Shown: one piece after another, positions 21,069 to 60,449 of the stretch | Numbering within the stretch: the first letter of the stretch is position 1 | How the letters are laid out: the number at the start of each line of letters is the position of its first letter | DNA from: an uncultured Chloroflexota bacterium | Lineage (GTDB): Bacteria; Chloroflexota; UBA11872; VXNJ01 | Assembly: GCA_913043205.1 (NCBI GenBank) | Contig: CAJWLF010000001.1 | Coordinates: forward strand, 124,001-188,000 | Direction: 5' to 3' | DNA: 64,000 nucleotides | Translations under genes and position numbers: made by a program | The notes under the pieces: generated by a model | The model's database searches: none | What the model was told of the DNA's origin: nothing | The model's input: only the letters and a program-made list of their open reading frames with translations

Positions 21069-22529
21069 TTATTGATTAGTTTGGTCAGCTGTTATGGGCG
21101 GGATCCGATTCATATCTGATGCTCTTGGATCTGACCAGGATTGAGCAAAATACCTTTGATTTTCTTCAAGGCTTCTATCCAATCTGCCTAGTTGTCCAAA
21201 TCCCGTTATCCCTAGATAACGTCCGTCTTTGTGTGGTTCGGCATAGTTGTCGAACCAATCTTCCAATACAGTCTTCAGGGATGCTATTTGAGCAACATGT
21301 TTTGAATCGTCGATCAAATTGTTGCGCTCATCAGGGTCATTAATCATGTCCCATAGTTCGTTGGGTTCTCCTTCAAGCCTTTGAACATATTTCCAATCTT
21401 TAGTACGTACCATTCGAGTGCCACCAAACTCATCAAAAACTACTACTGCTTTGGAAGCATCCAGCTCAGGCCCCACCAATGACTTGGAAAAATCCTTCCC
21501 GGGCAAGTTGGCACCAGGTGGAACTGGCAAATCTACATACCCCAGTAGCGTTGGAAACATATCGTAGGAGCTATAAAGACCATCTAAAACTTGTCCGTTG
21601 ACTATCGTGCCGGGCTGATTGAATATACAGGGCAATCGTACGGAGTATTCGTACATGTTGAACGGATACGTTCCATTACCCTTGCCCCATATACCGTGAT
21701 GACCAAAATTGAATCCGTTGTCTGACGTGAAGATGATTAAAGTCTCGTCTCTGATTCCGAGTTCATCTAACCGCTGGATAATTCTTCCGACGTTTGCATC
21801 CATTGCTGTTACAGCAGCAAAATAACCCTTCAGCATTTCCTTGCCTCCCTTAAACTCTGTGGGAGATCCTGTCATCCATGGATGTGGTGTTTCTTGAGGG
21901 CAAGAGTCAAAATTACAATCGTCATATGAATCGACTATGTCCTGGGGGTGTCCGTACCATGGGCTGTGGGGAGCTGTGTAGTGCACACTGGCGTAAAACC
22001 GCTGATCTCGGGCGGAGCAGTCATCTATAAAAGCCAGAGCGTCGTCTGTTATCAGGTCTGTAGCATAACCTTCTGGTTGTTCTAGTACCCCGTCGCGACT
22101 CATGGTTGGGTTTACATAACTTCCTCCACCGTATTGACGCATGTAGTACCTTGAGAACCCATGTTCGCCTAGTTCGCGTTCACCTAAATGCCATTTCCCT
22201 GACAGACTGCATTCCCAACCATGTGCAGCCAGGGTATCCACGTACGTTACTTCTCCATCGAGTAATGTTTCGGGCATCAGACCAGAACTGTCTTGTCTTA
22301 TCCAATCATGGACACCGTGCTGTGAATTTATTTTGCCAGTCAGATATGTAGCTCTGCTTGGCGAGCATACAGGTGAAGCACAGAAAAAGTTTTCAATACG
22401 CACACCGGTAGATGCTAAGGCATCGATATTTGGAGTGCGAATTTCCGAATTCCCGTAACATCCTGCGGCCCAAATAGCTTGGTCGTCGGTAAGGATAAAT
22501 ATGATGTTCGGTTTGCCCTTTGTCTTCAA
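21069..22529 (-). CDS. Type I sulfatase (formylglycine-dependent)
   Basis: A 486-residue sulfatase of the alkaline-phosphatase superfamily. Metal-binding IIFILTDDQ is at the N terminus. The C-x-P-S-R motif is CSPSRATYLTG with Cys55 as the formylglycine precursor; SGKWHLGE, HYTAPHSPW and FTSDNGFNFGHHG complete the active site. No signal peptide is evident, so it may be cytoplasmic. It hydrolyses an organic sulfate ester of unknown identity. Start is TTG at 22529 with AGGAG 6 nt upstream. It is clearly paralogous to the next gene and co-oriented with it. Confidence 0.9.
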   Translation of the reverse strand: MKTKGKPNIIFILTDDQAIWAAGCYGNSEIRTPNIDALASTGVRIENFFCASPVCSPSRATYLTGKINSQHGVHDWIRQDSSGLMPETLLDGEVTYVDTLAAHGWECSLSGKWHLGERELGEHGFSRYYMRQYGGGSYVNPTMSRDGVLEQPEGYATDLITDDALAFIDDCSARDQRFYASVHYTAPHSPWYGHPQDIVDSYDDCNFDSCPQETPHPWMTGSPTEFKGGKEMLKGYFAAVTAMDANVGRIIQRLDELGIRDETLIIFTSDNGFNFGHHGIWGKGNGTYPFNMYEYSVRLPCIFNQPGTIVNGQVLDGLYSSYDMFPTLLGYVDLPVPPGANLPGKDFSKSLVGPELDASKAVVVFDEFGGTRMVRTKDWKYVQRLEGEPNELWDMINDPDERNNLIDDSKHVAQIASLKTVLEDWFDNYAEPHKDGRYLGITGFGQLGRLDRSLEENQRYFAQSWSDPRASDMNRIPPITADQTNQ

Positions 22530-22599
22530 ATCAATCTCCTGTTTATCTGAGCTTAAATTTCGCGGTATTTCGCATACAAATAATCGTTACACGATACTG

Positions 22600-24021
22600 T
22601 TACTTGGAGACAATATCCTCTCTTCCAGTTGCCGAAGGCCCCACTAATGAGTGGAATACTTTGCTGTCAGGATAATTATTATCTGTTATCCGGTCTAATT
22701 GTCCTGCCCCCGTCACCCGAAACGTTTTGCCATCGAACATGGGCTCGGAGTACTGGTTAAACCACTTTACCAGAGACTTTTTCATGGCAATGATCCTATC
22801 TCTGTGCTGTACATCATAGGCAAGATTGAACTTTTCCTGACAGTCGTTGTGTAGATCATATAGCTCGTCTGGTCCAGTTTCATACCGATGCACGTATTTC
22901 CACCTAAGATCACGGATCATCCTTGTAGGCCCATACTCATCGTAAACGGTTACCGCCTTGCGGATGTCAATGCCATTTGTGGATAGAGCAGGGACAAAAC
23001 TGTTTCCCGGCAGGTTGTCGGGCGCTGGGTGTTCCAAGTTTAAGTAGTCTAATAGCGTTGGCATAAGGTCATAGTTGCTCACTAGAGTTCGTCTGGTTTG
23101 CCCGGACGGTATTGATCCGGGTTGGCTAATAATGAATGGTACTCGAATAGAGGATTCGTACATGTTCTGGGGATACGTTCCATTACCTTTTCCCCAAAAG
23201 CCGTGATGGCCAAGGTTAAACCCGTTGTCACTGGTAAAAATCACCAAAGTGTCTTCTCGAATTCCCAATTTATGCAGATGAGCAATGATTCTGCCTACGT
23301 CATGATCCATAGCTGTAGTAGCGGCAAAATATCCTTTTACTAGTTCGGCGTCTCCCATGCATGAATCAGTAAGATTGCGAGCCCATGGGTGGGTTTCACC
23401 TTGAGGGCAGGATTCAAAATTGCAGCCGTCATATAGTTTCATATACTTTTCCGGGTGCCCTACCCAGGGTAAATGAGGAGCTGTATAGTGAATGCTTGAA
23501 TAAAATGGTGTTTCTGAGTTGACGCAGTCGGTAATGAACTTAATTGCGTCATCTGTGATTGCGGTTGTGACGTAACCAGGTACTTTGGTAAGTCGTCCAT
23601 TTTTGACCATGGTCGCGTTGTTGTAAGGCCCTCCACCTTTTTCATGTGTGAACCAATGGCTGAATCCATGTTGTGGGAGTTCACTATTTCCTAAATGCCA
23701 TTTACCACTGATACCACAACTCCATCCATGTTTGGCTAGGATGTCTGTATAAGTGAGTTGACCTTCTAGATAACTAGTCGCATCGGGCCCTGTATTTCCG
23801 TTGCGAATCCAGTCATGCACCCCGGTTTGCGAGGCTATTCGGCCAGTAAGGAAAGTAGCGCGGCTTGGGGAGCATACGGGAGTTGAACAGAAAAAGTTTT
23901 CTATCATGACGCCTGTCGATGCCAAATGGTCTATATTTGGAGTGATGGCGTCATCGTTACCGTAACACCCAGTGGCCCATGTGGCTTGATCGTCTGTCAT
24001 GATGAAAACTATGTTTGTCAC
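22600..24021 (-). CDS. Type I sulfatase, tandem paralogue
   Basis: A 473-residue sulfatase closely similar along its length to the neighbour at 21069-22529: both share GCYGN, IENFFC, CSPSRAT, GVHDWIR, GKWHLG and HYTAPH, and both end in a TGxGQLxR motif. The formylglycine site is Cys50 in CSPSRATFLTG. The start is GTG at 24021 (MTNIVFIMTDDQ), with no strong ribosome site. It most likely arose by local duplication, giving two enzymes for related sulfate esters. No formylglycine-generating enzyme is seen in the window. Confidence 0.9.
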   Translation of the reverse strand: MTNIVFIMTDDQATWATGCYGNDDAITPNIDHLASTGVMIENFFCSTPVCSPSRATFLTGRIASQTGVHDWIRNGNTGPDATSYLEGQLTYTDILAKHGWSCGISGKWHLGNSELPQHGFSHWFTHEKGGGPYNNATMVKNGRLTKVPGYVTTAITDDAIKFITDCVNSETPFYSSIHYTAPHLPWVGHPEKYMKLYDGCNFESCPQGETHPWARNLTDSCMGDAELVKGYFAATTAMDHDVGRIIAHLHKLGIREDTLVIFTSDNGFNLGHHGFWGKGNGTYPQNMYESSIRVPFIISQPGSIPSGQTRRTLVSNYDLMPTLLDYLNLEHPAPDNLPGNSFVPALSTNGIDIRKAVTVYDEYGPTRMIRDLRWKYVHRYETGPDELYDLHNDCQEKFNLAYDVQHRDRIIAMKKSLVKWFNQYSEPMFDGKTFRVTGAGQLDRITDNNYPDSKVFHSLVGPSATGREDIVSK

Positions 24022-26702: not shown

Positions 26703-26888
26703 ATAAATTAAAACAACTTCTAACTACTAAATTGTATTTGCGCGAAACAAGTTAAGCTAGTTCTGCCGAATTACCTGAGTCCTTGTATACAATATATCGC
26801 AGGGTAGATGTTGCCCTACTGTTAGTTACGTAAGTTGGATTTTAGTCGTGTCTGTTTATGCAGGGACTGGCTTTCCGAAAGAGGAGCA

Positions 26889-28361
26889 ATGATGGGTCGC
26901 CCCAATATTTTGTGGTACTGCAGTGACCAACAGCGATTTGATACGATCCAAGGATTGAACAATCCTCATATTCATACGCCTCGGATCAACGAGTTTATGG
27001 ACAGCGCTGTTACTTTCACACACGCTTTTTGTCAGACTCAAATATGCACCCCGAGCCGTTCCAGTTTTTTAACAAGTCAATACCCCAGTGCGGTCGGTGT
27101 TATGGGAAATGGCAATGCATTTTTCCCAGATTCACAAGCGAGTAGACTTATTACACGACGACTTTCAGATTCCGGTTATGACGTCGGCAATGTAGGCAAA
27201 TTGCATCTCGCTGGGGCAGCTGGAGGACAAGAGCCACGTGTGAACGACGGATATCGCTATTTTGAATACAGCCACTCTAGCAAAGGTCCAGAGCAAGCCC
27301 ATCATGACTATGTCGATTGGCTGCGTCGTCAGGATGTTGATCCATTTTCATTGATGGAGAAGTCCGATCCTAGTACTTATCGGGCAGGGGCTAATGTTCG
27401 TAGTTTTGGTGGGTTATATGAGCCCACTGAAGATCAAGACAACATTCCTCCTCATTTACATCAAACGCATTGGTGCACAGAGATGGCCATAGAATTTTTG
27501 AATACTGTACGAAAAGAGGATGAACCATGGTTTTTGACTATTAACCCATTTGATCCTCATGCTGCATTCGATGCGCCCTGGGAGTATTACCGTAGATATA
27601 ATCCGGATTCATTACCCGGTGCTCATTTTGCTGAGAGTGACTTGGAACACCAGCAGCAGTTGGTAGAGGCGGGCGTTGATTTTCAGTCTAGACCTATGCA
27701 CCCGGAGCAGCGTGAACATCGTAAAATTCAGGCGTCGTATTATGCGATGATTGAACAAATCGACCACGAATTTGGGCGTTTAATTGACTATTTAGATGCT
27801 ACAAACCAACGTGAAAATACAATAATAATTTTTATGAGTGATCACGGAGAAGCCTTATGTGATCACGGCCTCATACTTAAGGGGTGCAGGTTTTTTGAAG
27901 GTCTGGTGAGGGTGCCTCTGATGATATCGTGGCCTAAGCAGTATCTTAAGGGCGAGATTAGTGACGCTTTGGTTGAACTTATTGACATAACGCCTACGCT
28001 CTATGAAGCTTGTGATGAGGAAATACCCTATTGGGTGCAAGGCAAATCGCTTGCGTCAATTTTGAATGGCAATTCTACCGGTGCCGATCATCGAGAGTTT
28101 GTACGGACGGAGTTTTTTGGAGCTATCGATCATGCAGACAACACCCATGCGACCATGTATCGCGACCGGCACTGGAAGCTTGTTTCCTACCATGGAAAGG
28201 ATCTGTTTGAATTGTATGACTTGCAGCAAGACCCTTGGGAACACAATAATTTGGCCGCGAACGATAGCTACGCTTCCAAACTCAATGAACTCATAAGAAA
28301 GAGCTTTGATGCACAGGTTTATTCGCATCAAGCGAGTCCACCACGAACGTCACCGTATTAG
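26889..28361 (+). CDS. Type I sulfatase or related arylsulfatase/phosphonate-hydrolase-like enzyme
   Basis: A 490-residue alkaline-phosphatase-superfamily hydrolase, only distantly like the tandem pair. Motifs: RPNILWYCSDQQRFDT (metal binding), CTPSRSSFLTSQ with Cys53 as formylglycine precursor, GKLHLAG, PFDPHAAFDAPWEYY and FMSDHGEALCDHGLILKG. The C-terminal half resembles choline-sulfatase and phosphonate-monoester-hydrolase-like members, so the ester is uncertain. The start is ATG at 26889, preceded by AGAGGAGC; the frame extends back to a TTG at 26835 but without a ribosome site. It is divergent from the CorC-type pair. Confidence 0.87.
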   Translation: MMGRPNILWYCSDQQRFDTIQGLNNPHIHTPRINEFMDSAVTFTHAFCQTQICTPSRSSFLTSQYPSAVGVMGNGNAFFPDSQASRLITRRLSDSGYDVGNVGKLHLAGAAGGQEPRVNDGYRYFEYSHSSKGPEQAHHDYVDWLRRQDVDPFSLMEKSDPSTYRAGANVRSFGGLYEPTEDQDNIPPHLHQTHWCTEMAIEFLNTVRKEDEPWFLTINPFDPHAAFDAPWEYYRRYNPDSLPGAHFAESDLEHQQQLVEAGVDFQSRPMHPEQREHRKIQASYYAMIEQIDHEFGRLIDYLDATNQRENTIIIFMSDHGEALCDHGLILKGCRFFEGLVRVPLMISWPKQYLKGEISDALVELIDITPTLYEACDEEIPYWVQGKSLASILNGNSTGADHREFVRTEFFGAIDHADNTHATMYRDRHWKLVSYHGKDLFELYDLQQDPWEHNNLAANDSYASKLNELIRKSFDAQVYSHQASPPRTSPY

Positions 28362-51603: not shown

Positions 51604-52734
51604 TTGAAACTTCATGAGCATCAAGCTCGCAAGCTGTTGTCTGAATTCTCCATACCGGTGCCTCGTGGGATAGTGGCTTCCTCAGTAGATGAGGCGATTT
51701 CGGCTTTTCACGAACTAGGAGGCCCGGTAGTGGTGAAGGCACAAGTCTTGTCTGGTGGGAGGGGAAAGGCTGGAGGGGTGGTATTAGCCAATAACGAGGC
51801 TGCCGTAGAATCCGCTGCAAAAAACATACTGCGTCTTGAGATAGGTGGATATTCTGTGAAGCGTCTTTTAATCACTGATGCTTGCGAAATTTCAAAGGAA
51901 ATATATTTATCCGCTTTGATCGACAGAAACGCAGGGGCGATTGCTGTGATGGCTAGCTCCAAAGGCGGTATGGATATTGAAGAAGTGGCTCTGCAGTCGC
52001 CCGAATTGATAATGCGTAGACATGTTGATTATGCCACGGGTCTCCCTCAATTTATGGCTCGAGAGTTGGGCTTTGAACTCGGTTTGGATTGGGATCAAGT
52101 GAAAGAGTTTCAGAGCATAGCGTCTAACCTAGTAGAGCTGCTGAAACAAGTCGATGCTTCACTTGTTGAGATTAACCCTTTGATTGTAGATGGTGAGGGC
52201 CATTGTCGGGCGATAGATGCAAAGATTGATTTAGATGACAATGCCATGGGCCGTCATCCTGAGCTGGAAAATCTTCGTAACCCGGAGGAGTATACCCGCG
52301 AGGAGATTGAGGCGCGAAACGCCGGCATTAGCTATATAAAATTGGATGGGAACATAGGGTGTATGGTCAATGGAGCAGGTTTGGCTATGGCTCTTCTTGA
52401 TGTAATCAAAGGTGAGGGCGGAGAGCCAGCCAATTTTCTCGATGTCGGGGGTGGTGCTGATTCTGTACAGGTCCGAACAGCCATGAACATAATCCTGTCT
52501 GATCCAACTGTACGGGTTATCTTGATCAATATTTTTGGAGGTATCACTAGATGTGACGAGGTTGCGAACGGTGTAATTGAAGCACTTGGGTCGATTTCCA
52601 AAGATGTTGATCTCGTAGTTCGCTTGGTTGGTACTAATGAGGATGAAGGGTTGTCGCTTTTGAAAACCGCTGGCATTTCAGCTCATTCGTCCATGGTTGA
52701 GGCGGTCAAACAGGCTGTTGAGCTGGCGTCATGA
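51604..52734 (+). CDS. sucC: Succinyl-CoA ligase (ADP/GDP-forming) beta subunit
   Basis: A 376-residue protein with an ATP-grasp N-terminal domain (KLHEHQARKLLSEFSIPVPRG; VVVKAQVLSGGRGKAGGV; LVEINPLIVDGEG) and a C-terminal CoA-ligase domain (CMVNGAGLAMALLDVI; ANFLDVGGGAD; INIFGGITRCDEVANGV). With SucD it couples succinyl-CoA to succinate with NTP formation. Start is TTG at 51604, with GGAGG (51592-51596) 7 nt upstream. It is the first gene of the five-gene sucCD-sdhAB-like-mdh run. Confidence 0.95.
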   Translation: MKLHEHQARKLLSEFSIPVPRGIVASSVDEAISAFHELGGPVVVKAQVLSGGRGKAGGVVLANNEAAVESAAKNILRLEIGGYSVKRLLITDACEISKEIYLSALIDRNAGAIAVMASSKGGMDIEEVALQSPELIMRRHVDYATGLPQFMARELGFELGLDWDQVKEFQSIASNLVELLKQVDASLVEINPLIVDGEGHCRAIDAKIDLDDNAMGRHPELENLRNPEEYTREEIEARNAGISYIKLDGNIGCMVNGAGLAMALLDVIKGEGGEPANFLDVGGGADSVQVRTAMNIILSDPTVRVILINIFGGITRCDEVANGVIEALGSISKDVDLVVRLVGTNEDEGLSLLKTAGISAHSSMVEAVKQAVELAS

Positions 52735-53597
52735 GCATTCTGATCAATGAAAACACTAAAGTTATGGTTCAGGGAATTACCGGTAATCAAGGTTCATTTC
52801 ACACCAACCTAATGCAGCAATATGGCACGAACGTCATCAGTGGTGTCGTGCCCGGGAAAGGTGGCGAATCAGTCTTCGGCGTACCAGTTTTTGACACCGT
52901 CATTCAGGCTGTTGAGTTCGATAGACCAGATTGTGCAGTGGTATTTGTTCCGGCCGCTGTTGCGGCTGATGCAATACTTGAGGAGGTGGCTTGCGGCATT
53001 CCATTAATTATTTGCATTACTGAGGGTATTCCGGTGCTTGATGTAACAAGAGTTATGCAGGCAGTAAATGCTTCCGGTGTCCGGCTGATTGGACCCAATT
53101 GCCCCGGTCTTATAAGCCCTGGTCGAAGCAAGGTTGGGATTATGCCGAGTCATATTCATATGCCGGGACCTGTAGGCGTCGTCAGCCGTAGTGGAACTCT
53201 CACTTATGAAGTCGTACAGGCTTTAACTGATGCCGGCATCGGTCAAACTACATGTGTTGGGATTGGTGGGGACCCCATAATTGGCACATCTTTTGTTGAG
53301 GCCGTAAAAATGTTTCAAGAAGACGATGAAACACGAGGTATTGTGGTCATAGGGGAGATTGGAGGGGAGGGTGAAGAACAATGTGCAGAGTATATAGGCA
53401 AATACGTAGACAAGCCGGTCGTAGGATTCATTTCCGGTAGGTCAGCGCCCGCTGAAAAACGTATGGGGCACGCCGGTGCGATTGTCTCAGGTAGTACAGG
53501 GTCAGCTGATGCAAAAATTTCGGCCTTCGAAGAAGTCGGTGTTTCAGTCGCAAGGATTCCAACTGACATTGCCGCGTTAATTTCTGATTTATTGTGA
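52731..53597 (+). CDS. sucD: Succinyl-CoA ligase alpha subunit
   Basis: A 288-residue protein. The CoA-binding Rossmann domain carries VMVQGITGNQGSFHTNLMQQYG and VSGVVPGKGG-like residues; the phosphohistidine site is GHAGAIVSG (His in the MGHAGAIV loop). GPNCPGLISPG and GIGGDPIIGTSFVEAV complete the family pattern. ATG overlaps the sucC stop by 4 nt. The next gene starts about 120 nt further on. Confidence 0.95.
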   Translation: MSILINENTKVMVQGITGNQGSFHTNLMQQYGTNVISGVVPGKGGESVFGVPVFDTVIQAVEFDRPDCAVVFVPAAVAADAILEEVACGIPLIICITEGIPVLDVTRVMQAVNASGVRLIGPNCPGLISPGRSKVGIMPSHIHMPGPVGVVSRSGTLTYEVVQALTDAGIGQTTCVGIGGDPIIGTSFVEAVKMFQEDDETRGIVVIGEIGGEGEEQCAEYIGKYVDKPVVGFISGRSAPAEKRMGHAGAIVSGSTGSADAKISAFEEVGVSVARIPTDIAALISDLL

Positions 53598-53720
53598 TGT
53601 TTTGTTATGCATGATCGTGTGCGCAGACGGATAACTGTGTAGGATATACGTTCAGGTGTTAATTAGAGTTATTACTTTGACGGGTTGTACAAGCAATCTG
53701 GGAAAGGCAAAAGCATAACT

Positions 53721-55364
53721 GTGATCCAGCACGATGTAATCGTGGTTGGTGGTGGTGTTGCAGGCCTTAGTGCGGCTATAGCTGCAGCTGACAGAGGGTC
53801 TGTGGCTCTTATTTCAAAGAGCCACCCGCTGCGCTCAATGTCGGCAAGTATTCGTGAAGGTATTAATTGTTGTGATGATGATTTGTTCCCTTCATTGGTG
53901 GCGGATACGATCCACGCCGGCGAATATCTTAATGATGTTAATGCTACAGAGGCATTGATCAAAAATTCCTCACAAATGGTCTCAAAGTTGGAGGAGTATG
54001 GGGTTGCCTTTACCCGAGATTCTGCAGGGTTGGCTGCAACGGCTAAATTACAAGGGGCTTCTCGTTCATATACTCGGTACTGTTCCGACCATACAGGAAG
54101 GGCGGTAGTTAATGCTTTGTGGAGCCAAGTGGTTAAGGCTGGCGTATCTGTATACGACGAATGGATGGCTACTAAATTACTTGTAGACGAGTCGACAGTG
54201 TGCGGTGTTGTTGCACTGGATATACGGTCTGGTCGTGTACATTCTTTTTCTGGTCGCTCTGTAGTCATTTGCTCGGGGGGGTATGGGGGTATATTTGCTG
54301 ATAGTGCTGCGGGGTCCTATGTTTGCGGTGATGGATTGGCGATGGCCTATCGAATTGGCGCCACCCTTAAGAATATGGAATTTGTGGATTTTCACCCTGC
54401 TGGACTTAGAACGGTTGATGGGATGCCATCAGATGGGGCAGCTATCGGTGATATGGCCATAGCCCTAGGGGCGCGATTCGTGAATTCTGATGGAGATGAG
54501 ATAGACGTTGGGTTGAATAATGGGGTGCTTCCACCGGACCACATAATGTCAAACGCTCTCAGTAATGTGGCTGGTGATGTGGCATTAGATTTCACCACAA
54601 TCGATAATGAGTTGATGGCTGAGATTATTCCTTCTTGTTTACCTCTTTTGCGTTCTATCACCACTACTTCATCTGATGGTATTAGAGTTTCAGTTAAGCC
54701 GGTTGTTAGGCGGGTAATCGGCGGTATAAACATAAATAGTGTCGGTGCGACTAATGTGTCAGGGCTATACGCTGCTGGTGAGGCTGCCTGCTCAGGGGTT
54801 CATGGAGCGGGGTTGCTAGCAGGGAATTCAATGCTCGATGATTTTGTATCCGGATGGAATGCTGGCGTGGAAGGCAGTCGGGTTGAAGGTGGCTTTAGGA
54901 CCATCAATGAAGGTGACGCGCATGATGAGCAGAATCGAATAGAGAGCATATTACGTAGAGATGAGGGGAACTCGGCGGCGGCAATTTCAAGTTCTCTAAG
55001 GCGCGCTATGTCCGATGGTTTTGGAGTCCTTAGATCACCGGATGGTATGGAAATTGCTTCTCAAGTGCTATTTGATTGTCGCGAATCCCTCAATGGTGTC
55101 GCCATTTACGATGGGCGAAGCCGCTATAATCAAGAATTAGTTAAAGTGCTTGAATTGCAGAATATGATAGAGGTTGCAGGTGCGCTGGTTACGTCTGCAA
55201 TGGCACGAAAGGAATCACGGGGTAGTCATAAACGTACTGATTTTATTGAGGTTGATGACGAGAGATATCAAAAACATTCTGAAATCACATTTCACCCCAA
55301 TGGTTCTGAAGTATCTTTTGTGTCTTTTCCGGCAATTCGCTCCTCCCGACAGGAGGCTCAGTGA
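53721..55364 (+). CDS. SdhA/FrdA-like flavoprotein with lost dicarboxylate-site residues
   Basis: A 547-residue paralogue of succinate dehydrogenase/fumarate reductase flavoprotein. FAD binding is intact (DVIVVGGGVAGLSAA; GLYAAGEAA). Aligned by eye to the in-window FrdA at 58689-60449, Met40 replaces the covalent-FAD His, Asp273 the proton-shuttle Arg of GPRD, Arg330 the His of VVHYMMGG, and Leu365 the Arg of GANRLG; only His225 (FHPAG) remains. A C-terminal [14 protein letters not shown] motif is kept. So FAD should be non-covalent and succinate chemistry unlikely. It overlaps the FeS partner as TGATG. GTG 53721 is preferred; the frame reaches TTG 53685. Confidence 0.75.
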   Translation: MIQHDVIVVGGGVAGLSAAIAAADRGSVALISKSHPLRSMSASIREGINCCDDDLFPSLVADTIHAGEYLNDVNATEALIKNSSQMVSKLEEYGVAFTRDSAGLAATAKLQGASRSYTRYCSDHTGRAVVNALWSQVVKAGVSVYDEWMATKLLVDESTVCGVVALDIRSGRVHSFSGRSVVICSGGYGGIFADSAAGSYVCGDGLAMAYRIGATLKNMEFVDFHPAGLRTVDGMPSDGAAIGDMAIALGARFVNSDGDEIDVGLNNGVLPPDHIMSNALSNVAGDVALDFTTIDNELMAEIIPSCLPLLRSITTTSSDGIRVSVKPVVRRVIGGININSVGATNVSGLYAAGEAACSGVHGAGLLAGNSMLDDFVSGWNAGVEGSRVEGGFRTINEGDAHDEQNRIESILRRDEGNSAAAISSSLRRAMSDGFGVLRSPDGMEIASQVLFDCRESLNGVAIYDGRSRYNQELVKVLELQNMIEVAGALVTSAMARKESRGSHKRTDFIEVDDERYQKHSEITFHPNGSEVSFVSFPAIRSSRQEAQ

Positions 55365-56074
55365 TGGATAATGTTGAATTAGTTGTAACTAGATACGATC
55401 CAGAAATAGACGATTTTCATCGAAGTCAAACATTCTCTGTTAGGGCGGTGCCAGGCATGACTGTTCTTGATGCACTAGTTCAGGTCCGTGACGAACAGGA
55501 TGGATCACTTCGTTTCAGAGAGTCGGAACCTGGTGGTTGGAGCGGTTCATGCGCGGTCACGGTTAATGACGTGCCGTGTCTGGCTTCCCGGACGCTTCTG
55601 GCTAGAGTTATATTAAATAATTCAGCTGTGATAGGTCCTTTGAAGAATTTTCCGGTAATATGTGATCTGGTTGTTGACAACCCCATATATCTGGCAAAAA
55701 TTGAAGCTTTGGAGCCTTGGGTAGATAACGCAAAAGAGCAACCTGCATCAATGACCCGTGAAGAGTATTTTAGATTGCGACGAACTGATGGGTGTGCCCT
55801 TTGTGGTATTTGTGATGCTAATTCGGATGAGTACCTGACTGATCCAATGTTTATTGGAGCAGCGTCATTACTGTGGACCTATCGTTTGACATCCGATTCG
55901 CGTGACTCGTTTGACCGAGAGCGCATGGAGGCTGTGCTTGGTAGCGGAGGGTTATGGGCCTTTTCTGGTGATACTTCCAGTGAGGATTTATGTCCTTATG
56001 CTATCGACCCAGTAAATCAAATTATGAGATTACGAAATGCAGCCTCACAGAATGGATATGTTCCTACTGAATAG
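55364..56074 (+). CDS. SdhB/FrdB-like protein keeping only the [4Fe-4S] ligands
   Basis: A 236-residue paralogue of the iron-sulfur subunit. Aligned by eye to FrdB at 57943-58692, three of four [2Fe-2S] cysteines are gone (only Cys63 remains) and all three [3Fe-4S] cysteines are replaced (Ser154, Phe200, Ser206 region). Cys144, Cys147, Cys150 (CALCGIC) and Cys210 (LCP), which bind [4Fe-4S] in complex II, are all kept. The rest of the fold still aligns (VLDAL, DGSL, PLKNFPVICDLVVD, SRDS). ATG 55364 has GGAGG 7 nt upstream. It presumably pairs with the flavoprotein encoded just before it. Confidence 0.75.
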   Translation: MDNVELVVTRYDPEIDDFHRSQTFSVRAVPGMTVLDALVQVRDEQDGSLRFRESEPGGWSGSCAVTVNDVPCLASRTLLARVILNNSAVIGPLKNFPVICDLVVDNPIYLAKIEALEPWVDNAKEQPASMTREEYFRLRRTDGCALCGICDANSDEYLTDPMFIGAASLLWTYRLTSDSRDSFDRERMEAVLGSGGLWAFSGDTSSEDLCPYAIDPVNQIMRLRNAASQNGYVPTE

Positions 56075-56122: not shown

Positions 56123-57049
56123 ATGCGGCCTAAAGTGACTGTTGTCGGAGCTGGTGCGACAGGCGGATCTACCGCGAGAAGGGTAGCCGCTCGCGGATAT
56201 GCTGACGTGGTGCTACTGGACATAATGGCAGACTTTGCTGCCGGCAAAGCCCTGGATTTAAATCAGGCAGGCTCTTTGGTCGGGTATCCGCCGAATATAG
56301 TTGGAACCGGGTCTTATGAAGATACTCGCGGATCTTCTGTTTGCGTAATAACCTCTGGGTTTCCTCGGAAGCCTGGAATGTCTCGAGATGATCTATTGCT
56401 TGGCAACAAGGAAATTATTGAAATCGTTGTCGAAAAGCTTTTAGACGAGTCTCCTGACACCATTTTGGTAATCCTAACGAATCCTATGGACGCGATGGCT
56501 CAATTAGCTCTCCACGTGTCTGGATTACCACGCCAAAAAGTTATAGGACAAGGTGGGATACTTGATACTGCTAGATATCGGACATTCATTGCATGGGAGC
56601 TCGGTGTAGCGGCTGATGATGTATCTGGTTTCGTTCTTGGTGGTCATGGAGATACGATGGTACCAGTACCCAGTTATACATCGGTAGCAGGCATTCCTGT
56701 AACGGAACTTATTGATGCTGATCGATTGGAAGAAATTGTTCAGCGTGCACGTGATGGTGGGGCCGAAGTTGGAGGTCTGATGAAAGTCGCTAGTGCATTT
56801 GAGGCGCCTGGAGAGGCCTGTGCAATGATGGTTGATTCCATAATGCTTGATCAGAAACGAATATTTCCCTGCGCTGTACAGCTGGAAGGTGAGTTTGATA
56901 TTGATGGGACCTTCGTCGGTGTTCCAGTTAAGTTGGGTAGCGGTGGAGTGGAACAGATAATGCCGCTGAAATTGTCGTCTACTGAAATATCAGATCTAAA
57001 AAAGTCAGCTGATGCAGTAGTTGAACTGGTTAAAATTATGGGTATCTAG
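56123..57049 (+). CDS. mdh: Malate dehydrogenase (LDH-like type)
   Basis: A 308-residue NAD-dependent enzyme of the LDH-like MDH group. The Rossmann loop is VVGAGATGGSTA, with an acidic residue after strand 2 (LLDIM) pointing to NAD. GKALDLNQA, substrate loop GFPRKPGMSRDDLL (Arg pair suits malate), LTNPMDAM, GGILDTARYRTF and the catalytic His in GGHGDTMVP are visible. It oxidises malate to oxaloacetate. AAGGAGG lies 10 nt before ATG. It ends the sucCD operon and converges with frdD. Confidence 0.94.
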   Translation: MRPKVTVVGAGATGGSTARRVAARGYADVVLLDIMADFAAGKALDLNQAGSLVGYPPNIVGTGSYEDTRGSSVCVITSGFPRKPGMSRDDLLLGNKEIIEIVVEKLLDESPDTILVILTNPMDAMAQLALHVSGLPRQKVIGQGGILDTARYRTFIAWELGVAADDVSGFVLGGHGDTMVPVPSYTSVAGIPVTELIDADRLEEIVQRARDGGAEVGGLMKVASAFEAPGEACAMMVDSIMLDQKRIFPCAVQLEGEFDIDGTFVGVPVKLGSGGVEQIMPLKLSSTEISDLKKSADAVVELVKIMGI

Positions 57050-57131: not shown

Positions 57132-57488
57132 TTAGAGCCCTGCAAGTAATAATGCAGCTAGCCCGGAAGCCCCAAGGGCGCTTAGATAACATAGTGTTGC
57201 CGCTATTGGATCTGGTATTGGAATACGAGTGTCATGTATCGTATGGCGTATCCGATGAGCGGCGTGCATTAACGATGCTCCTATAACGGCTAATACGACG
57301 ATGCGTACGATCCAGTTGCTAAGCAGTGAGTATATTCGATCATACGAAAAGGCCACTTGGGCCTCTTCTATTCCAAATCCACCTAAAATAGTAGATGCAA
57401 TTAATGAAGGTATTAGCATTGCTGACACGACTCCACCACCACTAAATATTAGCCAGAACAATGCTTCGTTCGATCCACGAGGCTTCAT
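57132..57488 (-). CDS. frdD: Complex II membrane anchor, FrdD-like
   Basis: A 118-residue protein with three membrane segments, the same length as E. coli FrdD (119). The N-terminal RGSNEALFWLIFSGGGVVSAMLIP matches the FrdD start (SNEPVFW-type). Later come LSNWIVRIVVLAVIGASLMHAAHRIRH and two more segments. With FrdC it anchors the catalytic subunits and holds quinone. ATG 57488 overlaps the frdC stop as ATGA, so the longer upstream frame (to 57530) is rejected. It converges with mdh. Confidence 0.82.
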   Translation of the reverse strand: MKPRGSNEALFWLIFSGGGVVSAMLIPSLIASTILGGFGIEEAQVAFSYDRIYSLLSNWIVRIVVLAVIGASLMHAAHRIRHTIHDTRIPIPDPIAATLCYLSALGASGLAALLLAGL

Positions 57489-57946
57489 GAAAATATCATC
57501 CATAGAACAATAGAGCTTACTCCCAACCACACTATGTAAAGGGGAGTGATTAAAAATAGTGGCGATATCGGAGATTCTCCTTTAAGTATCCGTACCGCTT
57601 TCGGCGTCAGATTAAACCAAGTTACCGTATGAAATAACGCAAAGAGCAAGGTAAATACTTGAATTACCGTTAATGGTGGCGACCATAGCAACTCCATATA
57701 GTCGTTGTATGCTTCTGCTCCGATATACAAAGCCGCTATCAACCCTATAAACAGTATGAGGTATAAAGCGATAAAGACTGAGGTTAGCTCTCTAATAAAT
57801 ACGAAGAAATAAGACGATCCCCGTAGCCACCACGTTGCCCCTAAATCTGGACGTGGGCGAGTATCACGCTGTCTGTATCTCGTGTGATTAAGCCACCAAT
57901 TTGAGTGCAAGTTATGGGAAGGACGGCGTTTTTCGGGGTCAGTCAT
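57485..57946 (-). CDS. frdC: Complex II membrane anchor, FrdC-like
   Basis: A 153-residue anchor with three membrane segments in about the last 100 residues. FFVFIRELTSVFIALYLILF aligns with the first FrdC helix, and VIQVFTLLFALFHTVTWFNLTPKA with the conserved HTxTWFxLAPKA segment. The ~45-residue N terminus is polar and basic. ATG 57946 overlaps the frdB stop as ATGA; the frame extends up to 58081 inside frdB but that is not used. The frdABCD order matches the enterobacterial fumarate reductase operon, though direction of the reaction cannot be read from sequence. Confidence 0.83.
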   Translation of the reverse strand: MTDPEKRRPSHNLHSNWWLNHTRYRQRDTRPRPDLGATWWLRGSSYFFVFIRELTSVFIALYLILFIGLIAALYIGAEAYNDYMELLWSPPLTVIQVFTLLFALFHTVTWFNLTPKAVRILKGESPISPLFLITPLYIVWLGVSSIVLWMIFS

Positions 57947-58692
57947 TTGTTCCCTTTTGGCATAATCAATGATTTGGCATAGGCCAGGGCACTTTCGAGC
58001 TTGGCTTGTTGTATCGCGGCTGCCGGATCTACTCCTTTTGGGCATACATTTGAACACTCTCCCACGAAGGTACAGTCCCAAACACCCTCATTGGCCATAA
58101 GAACATCTAGTCTTTGCTCTTTTCCTGAGTCGCGAGAGTCCAAGTTATATCGCTGGGCTAGCGCTATGGCTGCAGGTCCAACGAATTCAGGTTCGTTGCT
58201 GGCCACGGGGCACGCAGAGTAACACAGGGTGCAGTTAATACACATGCTGTATTGCTTGTATTTTGCCAGTTGAGCAGGTGTTTGTTTGTATTCTCGGTTC
58301 GCGGGAGGGACCGAGTCTCCTTCAATTAACCAGGGCTTCACGGAGTCTAGTTTGTGGATAAAGTCATCCATATCCACTATAAGATCTCGTTCAACTCTGA
58401 AATTGGCCAATGGTTCAACAACGATAGGGTCTGGGTAGTATTCTGAGAGAAACGCGGAACATGTGAGCTTGGGTTTGCCGTTAATCATCATCCCGCAACT
58501 GCCGCACACTCCCATTCGGCACGACCATCGATAAGCTAGCGATCCGTCAACGTAATCTTTTATGTAATTAAGCGCATCAAGAACAACCCAATCTTCGTTG
58601 TACGGAACCATGTATTCATCATAGCCGTCCGTGGTCTGCCCTTCGGTGTATCTGGATATTTTTAGGGGTATTCTGTCAGTATCCACGGTCAT
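57943..58692 (-). CDS. frdB: Succinate dehydrogenase/fumarate reductase iron-sulfur subunit
   Basis: A 249-residue complex II iron-sulfur protein with a full set of cluster ligands. [2Fe-2S]: [11 protein letters not shown] then LTC. [4Fe-4S] and [3Fe-4S]: [12 protein letters not shown] and the C-terminal [14 protein letters not shown]. It passes electrons from FAD to quinone. Start overlaps the frdA stop by 4 nt. It is the intact counterpart of the degenerate protein at 55364-56074. Confidence 0.95.
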
Positions 58693-60449
58693 TTTCCTCC
58701 TCCGTATATACGTTTAGCTGGCGGGAGGTTAGTGATGACAACATCCTTGTGCTCGATTCGCGGTGCGTCATCGGTGTTGTACGCAAGAGAATGTTTTAGG
58801 AACTCGTCATCATCTCGCTCTGGGAAATCAGTTCGCTGGTGAGATCCACGAGATTCTTTTCGGCGGAGCGCAGAGAACGTGACTGTCTCTGCAATATCAA
58901 GCATGAAGTCTAGCTCTATTGCAGAAGTTAATTCTGTATTGTAGGACAGGCTAGTGTCATCTAGTTTAAGGTTTTTGGATCGTTTGCGTAGCTCTGTGAT
59001 CGTTGTACAGGCCTTTTGCATTCCTTCCGCATTTCGGTATATTCCTGCTCCTTCTTCAAGCGCGGATGTCATTATATTTCTGAGATCCGCTATTTTTTCA
59101 TCCCCGGCTCGATTTCCGAGCAGCTCCGAAATCCTATTAATCTCGTCTTGAGTCTGGGAGAGCAGGTCGTTTTCCCCAGATATGCCGTGCTGTTGGGCGA
59201 ATATGGCTGCATTTCTGCCGGCTTGCGCCCCAAAAACTAGCAGTTCAGTTAGCGAATTGGAGCCTAGTCTATTTGCACCATTAATGCTTACGCATGCGCA
59301 TTCTCCGGCTGCGTATAGTCCCGGTAGGGTAGTCGCGGCTTCAATATCCGTATCTATGCCGCCCATCATGTAATGCACCACAGGACGCACGGGGATAGGT
59401 TCGTGTACAGGGTCTACCCCACCATAGTTGTTAGACAACTCCCTTACGAAAGGTATCTTTTTCTCAATATATGATTCACCCAAATGTCTTACGTCTAAAT
59501 GAACGTAAGTACCATGAGGGCCTTCAAAGACATTACCTTTGGTTTGTTCGTGTATGAACGCCTGCGACAAACGATCTCGGGGACCTAGTTCCATTGTTCG
59601 GTTTTTCGGATGATCATGATGATCTATAGGGAGAGGCTTGCCTAGATCATAGTCGCTGAGGTAACGATGTCCTTTGTTATTGACAAGGATCCCTCCCTCT
59701 CCTCGGGCTGCTTCGGTAATTAGAATACCGGTTCCTGGTAGTCCTGTTGGGTGGTATTGAACAAATTCCATGTCTTTCAATGCAACCCCTGCCCTGTAGG
59801 CTAGAGCCATTCCATCTCCGGTCTTGATTGCAGCATTCGTAGTAAATGGGAACACTCTTCCGCCTCCGCCTGTGCACATAATTACTGCCTTCGCAAGTAT
59901 CGGTACGATCCGTCCTGTGCGCAACTCCATTGCAGCTACCCCTTGGCACCTACCATCGTGGGTTAACAGCCTAAGCGCCATCCATTCGTCATACCGTTGC
60001 AAGCTCCTATATTTGAGAGTTGTTTGGAACAGTGAGTGAAGTACATGGAACCCAGTTTTGTCCGCTGCAAACCATGTACGTTCAATCTGCATTCCGCCAA
60101 ATGGGCGAACTGCAACGCTGCCGTCTGATTCGCGGCTCCAGGGACACCCCCAGTGTTCGAGTTGAATCAACTCCGACGGTGCTGTTCTCACGAAAAATTC
60201 AACAGCGTCCTGGTCCGCTAGCCAGTCTGATCCGCTCACCGTGTCATAGATGTGATCCTCAAAACTGTCATTGGGCTTGATGACGGCTGCCATGCCACCT
60301 TCTGCAGCCACCGTATGGCTGCGCATTGGGTAGACCTTGGAAACTACAGCCACGTCCAAATCTGGGTTCTCTTGAGACACCGCAATAGCAGCCCTAAGCC
60401 CTGCCCCTCCACCTCCAATAATTAGAATGTCGTGTTTGATAGAGCGCAT
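58689..60449 (-). CDS. frdA: Succinate dehydrogenase/fumarate reductase flavoprotein subunit
   Basis: A 586-residue complex II flavoprotein. FAD binding: [16 protein letters not shown] and the covalent His in [13 protein letters not shown]. Substrate and catalytic residues: [23 protein letters not shown] (proton-shuttle Arg), VVHYMMGGI and [10 protein letters not shown]. The C terminus has [13 protein letters not shown]. Enzyme direction (succinate oxidation or fumarate reduction) is undecided; other TCA genes here favour succinate oxidation. First gene of the frdABCD operon, divergent from the flavin monooxygenase gene. Confidence 0.95.

Follow-up and report, generated by a model that had tools for sequence, protein, structure and literature searches.

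Few catalytic modules in biology are as conserved as the SdhAB pair of complex II. Its SdhB subunit carries the ligands of three clusters, [2Fe-2S], [4Fe-4S] and [3Fe-4S], the last of which serves the quinone site in succinate dehydrogenase (SDH). Each electron hop within SDH is shorter than about 14 Å (PMC5698277, PMC8097209). In the flavoprotein, the residues equivalent to His44, His232, Glu245, Arg287, His355 and Arg390 of FrdA were each invariant in 108 of 108 canonical SdhA/FrdA sequences, which were taken from relatives, from named genomes, from the DNA under study and from E. coli (FrdA). SdhAB pairs of the SdhABE (CCG-containing) type, to which the 8-methylmenaquinol:fumarate reductase of Wolinella belongs, in the same class and phylum likewise have intact residues and all three SdhB clusters, and at the loci examined (L170 and L181) a CCG gene follows SdhB. 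L-aspartate oxidase (NadB) is built on the same FAD_binding_2/Succ_DH_flav_C fold.

The locus described here lies in the window, that is, the whole stretch of 64,000 nucleotides that was analysed, and consists of two plus-strand genes, X and Y (together XY), placed between sucCD and mdh, as the preliminary description had already noted for X. The block starts with sucC (succinyl-CoA synthetase beta subunit, 51604-52734) and sucD (alpha subunit, 52731-53597), both on the plus strand. X (53721-55364) encodes an SdhA/FrdA-like flavoprotein of 547 amino acids; it starts with GTG at 53721, an alternative TTG start is found at 53685, and the frame is open over 547 codons. Y (55364-56074) encodes an SdhB-like protein of 236 amino acids, and its ATG overlaps the stop codon of X by one base. 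The malate dehydrogenase gene mdh (56123-57049, plus strand) begins 48 bases after Y and comes directly next, with no membrane anchor or CCG gene 3' of Y. The codon-position GC content of X and Y is like that of the adjacent genes. A canonical sdhABCD/frdABCD-type complex with every catalytic residue present follows on the minus strand (57132-60449), comprising SdhA (58689-60449), SdhB (57943-58692) and two membrane anchors (57132-57850), and it covers the ordinary SDH function of the source genome. A 16S rRNA gene was not found in the assembly of that genome (G000, 94% complete).

In domain composition X corresponds to a functional SdhA/FrdA, with Pfam matches to FAD_binding_2 (2.7e-53) and Succ_DH_flav_C (2.1e-26), and its score against the curated NCBIfam sdhA/frdA models is 358.7 bits versus a cut-off of 567.3. 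An alignment of 110 sequences, including the 108 canonical ones, placed Met40, His225, Asp244, Asp273, Arg330 and Leu365 of X at the positions of FrdA His44, His232, Glu245, Arg287, His355 and Arg390, respectively. The covalent-FAD histidine is thus replaced by Met40; the proton-shuttle residues Arg287, Glu245 and Arg248 are replaced by Asp273, Asp244 and Ile247; and in the dicarboxylate site only His225 is kept, Arg330 and Leu365 being substitutions. The numbering of Met40, Asp273, Arg330, Leu365 and the retained His225 given in the preliminary description proved exact, and a misalignment of these residues was rejected by the same alignment. Overall, X retains 53 of 88 residues that are near-invariant in canonical SdhA/FrdA, and most of the losses concern the capping domain, the substrate site and the loop of the covalent flavin.

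The glycines of the FAD fold are kept in all four X orthologs, and so are all near-invariant residues of the helical domain at the C terminus, where the R-x-E-S-R-G-x-H-x-R-x-D motif lies. Together with the FAD_binding_2 match, this bears out the earlier statement that the FAD-binding motifs of X are intact, and it suggests that X probably binds FAD, which would be held non-covalently. The AlphaFold2 model of X (mean pLDDT 89) has the full SdhA fold, with FrdA/SdhA as the best Foldseek matches (TM 0.87-0.90). Its confidence dips in three segments (231-240, 301-320 and 361-370), and the third spans the position of the lost Arg390.

X might alternatively be a diverged NadB or another named FAD_binding_2 enzyme, since it matches the NCBIfam nadB model with 268.8 bits and, like NadB, has no covalent histidine. 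That score is far below the cut-off of 452.75 bits, however, and all three NadB sequences aligned keep Arg287, His355 and Arg390, indeed every Arg and His considered here except the covalent His, whereas X does not. Moreover, NadB has no SdhB partner while X has one, the source genome carries a separate intact NadB (L173), and in the tree a branch with full support parts X, together with SdhA, from NadB. With score, residues and tree in agreement with the preliminary view that X is not NadB, we regard this alternative as extremely improbable. For the SdhA of methylmenaquinol:fumarate reductase, X scores 218 bits versus a cut-off of 1100 bits.

Y passes the NCBIfam dhsB subfamily cut-off (148.7 versus 88 bits) and has a complete ligand set for a single cluster, as had been proposed for the partner of X. 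All four [4Fe-4S] cysteines (C144, C147, C150 and C210) are kept, all three [3Fe-4S] cysteines are lost, and so are three of the four [2Fe-2S] cysteines, which leaves a lone C63, at a position that is Asp in many canonical SdhB proteins. Five of the 11 cluster-ligand positions are therefore retained in the Y of the window. Y also retains 23 of 30 near-invariant SdhB residues. Of the seven that are gone, six are positions that ligate the two missing clusters, and Pro166 is the only one outside the cysteine ligands. As the four [4Fe-4S] cysteines are conserved in all four Y orthologs, Y very probably carries one [4Fe-4S] cluster. The AlphaFold2 model (mean pLDDT 91) has the full SdhB fold and matches E. 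coli FrdB and SdhB with TM values of 0.90-0.91. The ferredoxin-like domain of Y is thus kept without its cluster, which suggests that contact with X is a preserved feature.

When the pair is set against complex II as a whole, both subunits correspond over their full length in sequence and in fold (TM 0.87-0.91 to E. coli FrdA/FrdB), the A and B genes are likewise paired, and the motifs for FAD binding and the ligands of [4Fe-4S] are shared. XY differs in having neither the covalent-flavin histidine nor the equivalents of Arg287, His355 and Arg390, neither the [2Fe-2S] nor the [3Fe-4S] ligand set, and no anchor genes. Unlike the SdhABE complexes, it also has no CCG/SdhE gene beside it. We conclude that X and Y almost certainly do not form a succinate or fumarate enzyme.

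The order sucC-sucD-X-Y-mdh was found in four of the five genomes examined from a family of uncultivated bacteria, which represent three of its four genera: the source genome, G001, G002 and G004. The fifth, G003, has sucC-sucD-mdh-sdhABCD without XY. A search of 400 genomes of the phylum with a Y profile gave 395-437 bits in the four family genomes and at most 213 bits for the next best, and none of the 400 contained XY outside the family. Two contig scans yielded no named organism with XY, the first giving nothing and the second only SdhA proteins with the catalytic residues. Y forms a clade of its own (support 100/99), distinct from the SdhB of the source genome; a recent duplication of the genome's own sdhAB was rejected, as Y and this SdhB belong to different clades. 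Within the Y clade, the window has G001 as its sister (100/98), and G002 and G004 make up the other branch. X orthologs are much less conserved than Y orthologs (33-37% versus 42-50%), X evolves fast on long branches, and support for a single X clade is 32. The check by phylogeny and synteny called for earlier thus set X apart from NadB and gave Y its own clade within a conserved gene order.

Among the best matches to Y outside the family are the SdhABE-type pairs L004 and L171, from the same class and phylum, and the more distant L013, some of which lie near mdh. L013 (L181:8433-11084, contig C10 of G046) is a divergent SdhAB with CCG, found in a genome with a canonical sdhABCD as well. Its covalent histidine, Arg287, His355 and Arg390 are kept, Thr234, Arg248 and Asn389 are replaced by Met, Leu and Ser, and it may be an enzyme like fumarate reductase that uses another substrate. 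X was grouped as sister to L013 (89/95); this grouping joins two long branches and is not repeated by the Y tree, hence we do not rely on it.

Comparison of the orthologs points to a stepwise loss. The sister genus g3, represented by G002 and G004, keeps [2Fe-2S], [4Fe-4S], Glu245, Arg248, Arg287 and His355, but [3Fe-4S] is lost there, and Arg390, His44 and His232 are replaced by Pro, Gly and Asn, respectively. In the window and G001, [2Fe-2S] and the proton relay are lost too, with Glu245 and Arg287 replaced by Asp in both. X of G001 has a His in the His44 column, but the flanking Arg-Ser is absent. The ancestor may therefore be pictured as an SdhAB without an anchor, in which [3Fe-4S] and Arg390 would have been lost first, in the ancestor of the family; [2Fe-2S] and the relay would have gone in a second step, in the lineage leading to the window and G001. 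Joint loss of [3Fe-4S] and the membrane anchor makes sense, because this cluster serves the quinone site.

Between G002 and G004, dN/dS was 0.135 for X (95% bootstrap 0.095-0.191) and 0.252 for Y (0.152-0.400), compared with 0.193 for sucC and 0.139 for sucD, both taken with short stop-to-stop leaders, and 0.069 for mdh. These values cover genus g3 only; the lineage of the window was judged by intact frames and cysteine retention. The X and Y frames are intact in four genomes, and about 1.9 substitutions per site separate the Y proteins of the window and G001, which keep the same four cysteines. XY thus appears, from sequence, to have been kept up through the divergence of three genera, and we hold with high confidence that it is maintained by selection, the dN/dS evidence coming from g3. 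The pair has probably acquired a new role, different from the classical one. Marks of a candidate SdhAB pseudoenzyme, namely lost catalytic residues, a kept fold and purifying selection, are found here, selection having been measured in g3.

These data bear on the possibility that XY is the decaying remnant of an earlier SdhAB, left behind once the canonical sdhABCD was relied on. Such a relic would agree with the very long branches, the lost catalytic residues and the absence of XY from G003, in which sucD is followed at once by mdh and then by the canonical sdhABCD. It is at odds with the intact frames in four genomes, with dN/dS values in g3 well below 1, with the selective retention of the four [4Fe-4S] cysteines and near-invariant structural residues, and with the normal codon-position composition in the window. 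We consider a relic improbable, and simple decay is disfavoured by dN/dS and selective cysteine retention in particular.

The reading that we prefer, at slightly less than even confidence, is that XY is a maintained soluble pseudo-SdhAB heterodimer that performs no succinate chemistry and would most likely act as a redox-sensing or scaffold partner of TCA enzymes. Its main rival, which deserves about a third of our confidence, is an active soluble oxidoreductase for a new, non-dicarboxylate substrate, in which electrons would pass from the FAD of X through the cluster or clusters of Y to a soluble acceptor; a flavin/[4Fe-4S] oxidoreductase had been suggested in the preliminary description. In its favour are the intact FAD-binding motifs, the loss of [3Fe-4S], which fits that of the anchor with no anchor or CCG gene after Y, and the NadB-type relatives, which likewise do without the covalent histidine. 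It is possible in g3, where the orthologs may still be redox-active, as the Glu245-Arg248-Arg287 relay, His355, [2Fe-2S] and [4Fe-4S] are kept, a point that counts against the pseudo-SdhAB reading, as does the much lower conservation of X than of Y.

For the window the suggestion is weaker, since there, as in G001, both the [2Fe-2S] step and the relay are missing. Without [2Fe-2S], FAD and [4Fe-4S] would lie two hops apart, past the tunnelling limit of about 14 Å, so that no useful electron transfer is expected in this lineage, and we lean moderately towards an absence of redox catalysis by XY there. The former dicarboxylate site also varies between the window, g3 and G001, with His, Asn and Val at FrdA His232, Arg, His and His at His355, and Leu, Pro and Leu at Arg390. 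There is thus no common binding site, and this speaks against a single conserved new substrate as well as against the binding of a TCA intermediate proposed earlier; differing active sites among orthologs are what would be expected of abandoned chemistry. A conserved candidate acceptor gene adjoining XY is also lacking.

Judged by sequence, XY retains the folds of SdhA and SdhB, together with the motifs for FAD binding and the ligands of [4Fe-4S], and what has gone are the covalent-flavin histidine, the proton relay, the dicarboxylate site, the [2Fe-2S] and [3Fe-4S] ligand sets, the anchors and the CCG subunit. As a pseudo-SdhAB, the pair would probably use FAD and [4Fe-4S] in the lineage of the window as structural or sensing elements, and it might be a redox- or Fe-S-responsive regulator or scaffold that is produced along with SucCD and Mdh and acts on their segment of the TCA cycle. 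Synteny makes it conceivable, if tentative, that XY regulates or scaffolds SucCD and Mdh. The narrower proposal of a dedicated sensor of redox or Fe-S status that regulates or scaffolds the succinyl-CoA synthetase/malate dehydrogenase segment, in which the SdhAB fold would serve without catalysis and for which no described counterpart was found, is rather unlikely. Contacts of complex-II proteins outside the respiratory chain are exemplified by E. coli fumarate reductase, which binds the flagellar switch with an effect that depends on its activity (PMC6978683).

A partner closer at hand would be the resident SDH, of which XY could be an accessory, assembly or inhibitory subunit, as both the window and G001 have the canonical sdh genes next to the block. 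In G001, however, SDH is of another class (SdhA 35% identical), and in G002 about 120 kb of the same contig separates the canonical sdh genes from the block; XY nevertheless remains beside sucCD-mdh in each of these two genomes. The persistence of XY beside a different class of SDH speaks for a role independent of SDH and makes one limited to it unlikely; we see very little room for this alternative. The SDH of G001 (L165:2873-5767) branches elsewhere in the tree, and as other genomes of the family have the window-type SDH, it looks like a replacement within one family.

No degenerate or pseudoenzyme SdhAB came up in searches of the literature: the domain families and folds are known, and no description of a cluster-stripped, relay-less pair under selection in a TCA operon was found in the literature searched. 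XY would be a rare candidate pseudoenzyme in a core TCA operon, in which catalysis and wiring appear to have been removed stepwise and the module kept. With an intermediate surviving in the sister genus, one can ask of what use the FAD fold and the middle [4Fe-4S] cluster are when no electrons are transferred. The locus is also a warning that the family names 'sdhA' and 'sdhB' can mislead in such genomes. Elsewhere in the window, at 21069-24021 and 26835-28361, there are three sulfatase-like genes, two of which form a minus-strand tandem, the third lying on the plus strand.
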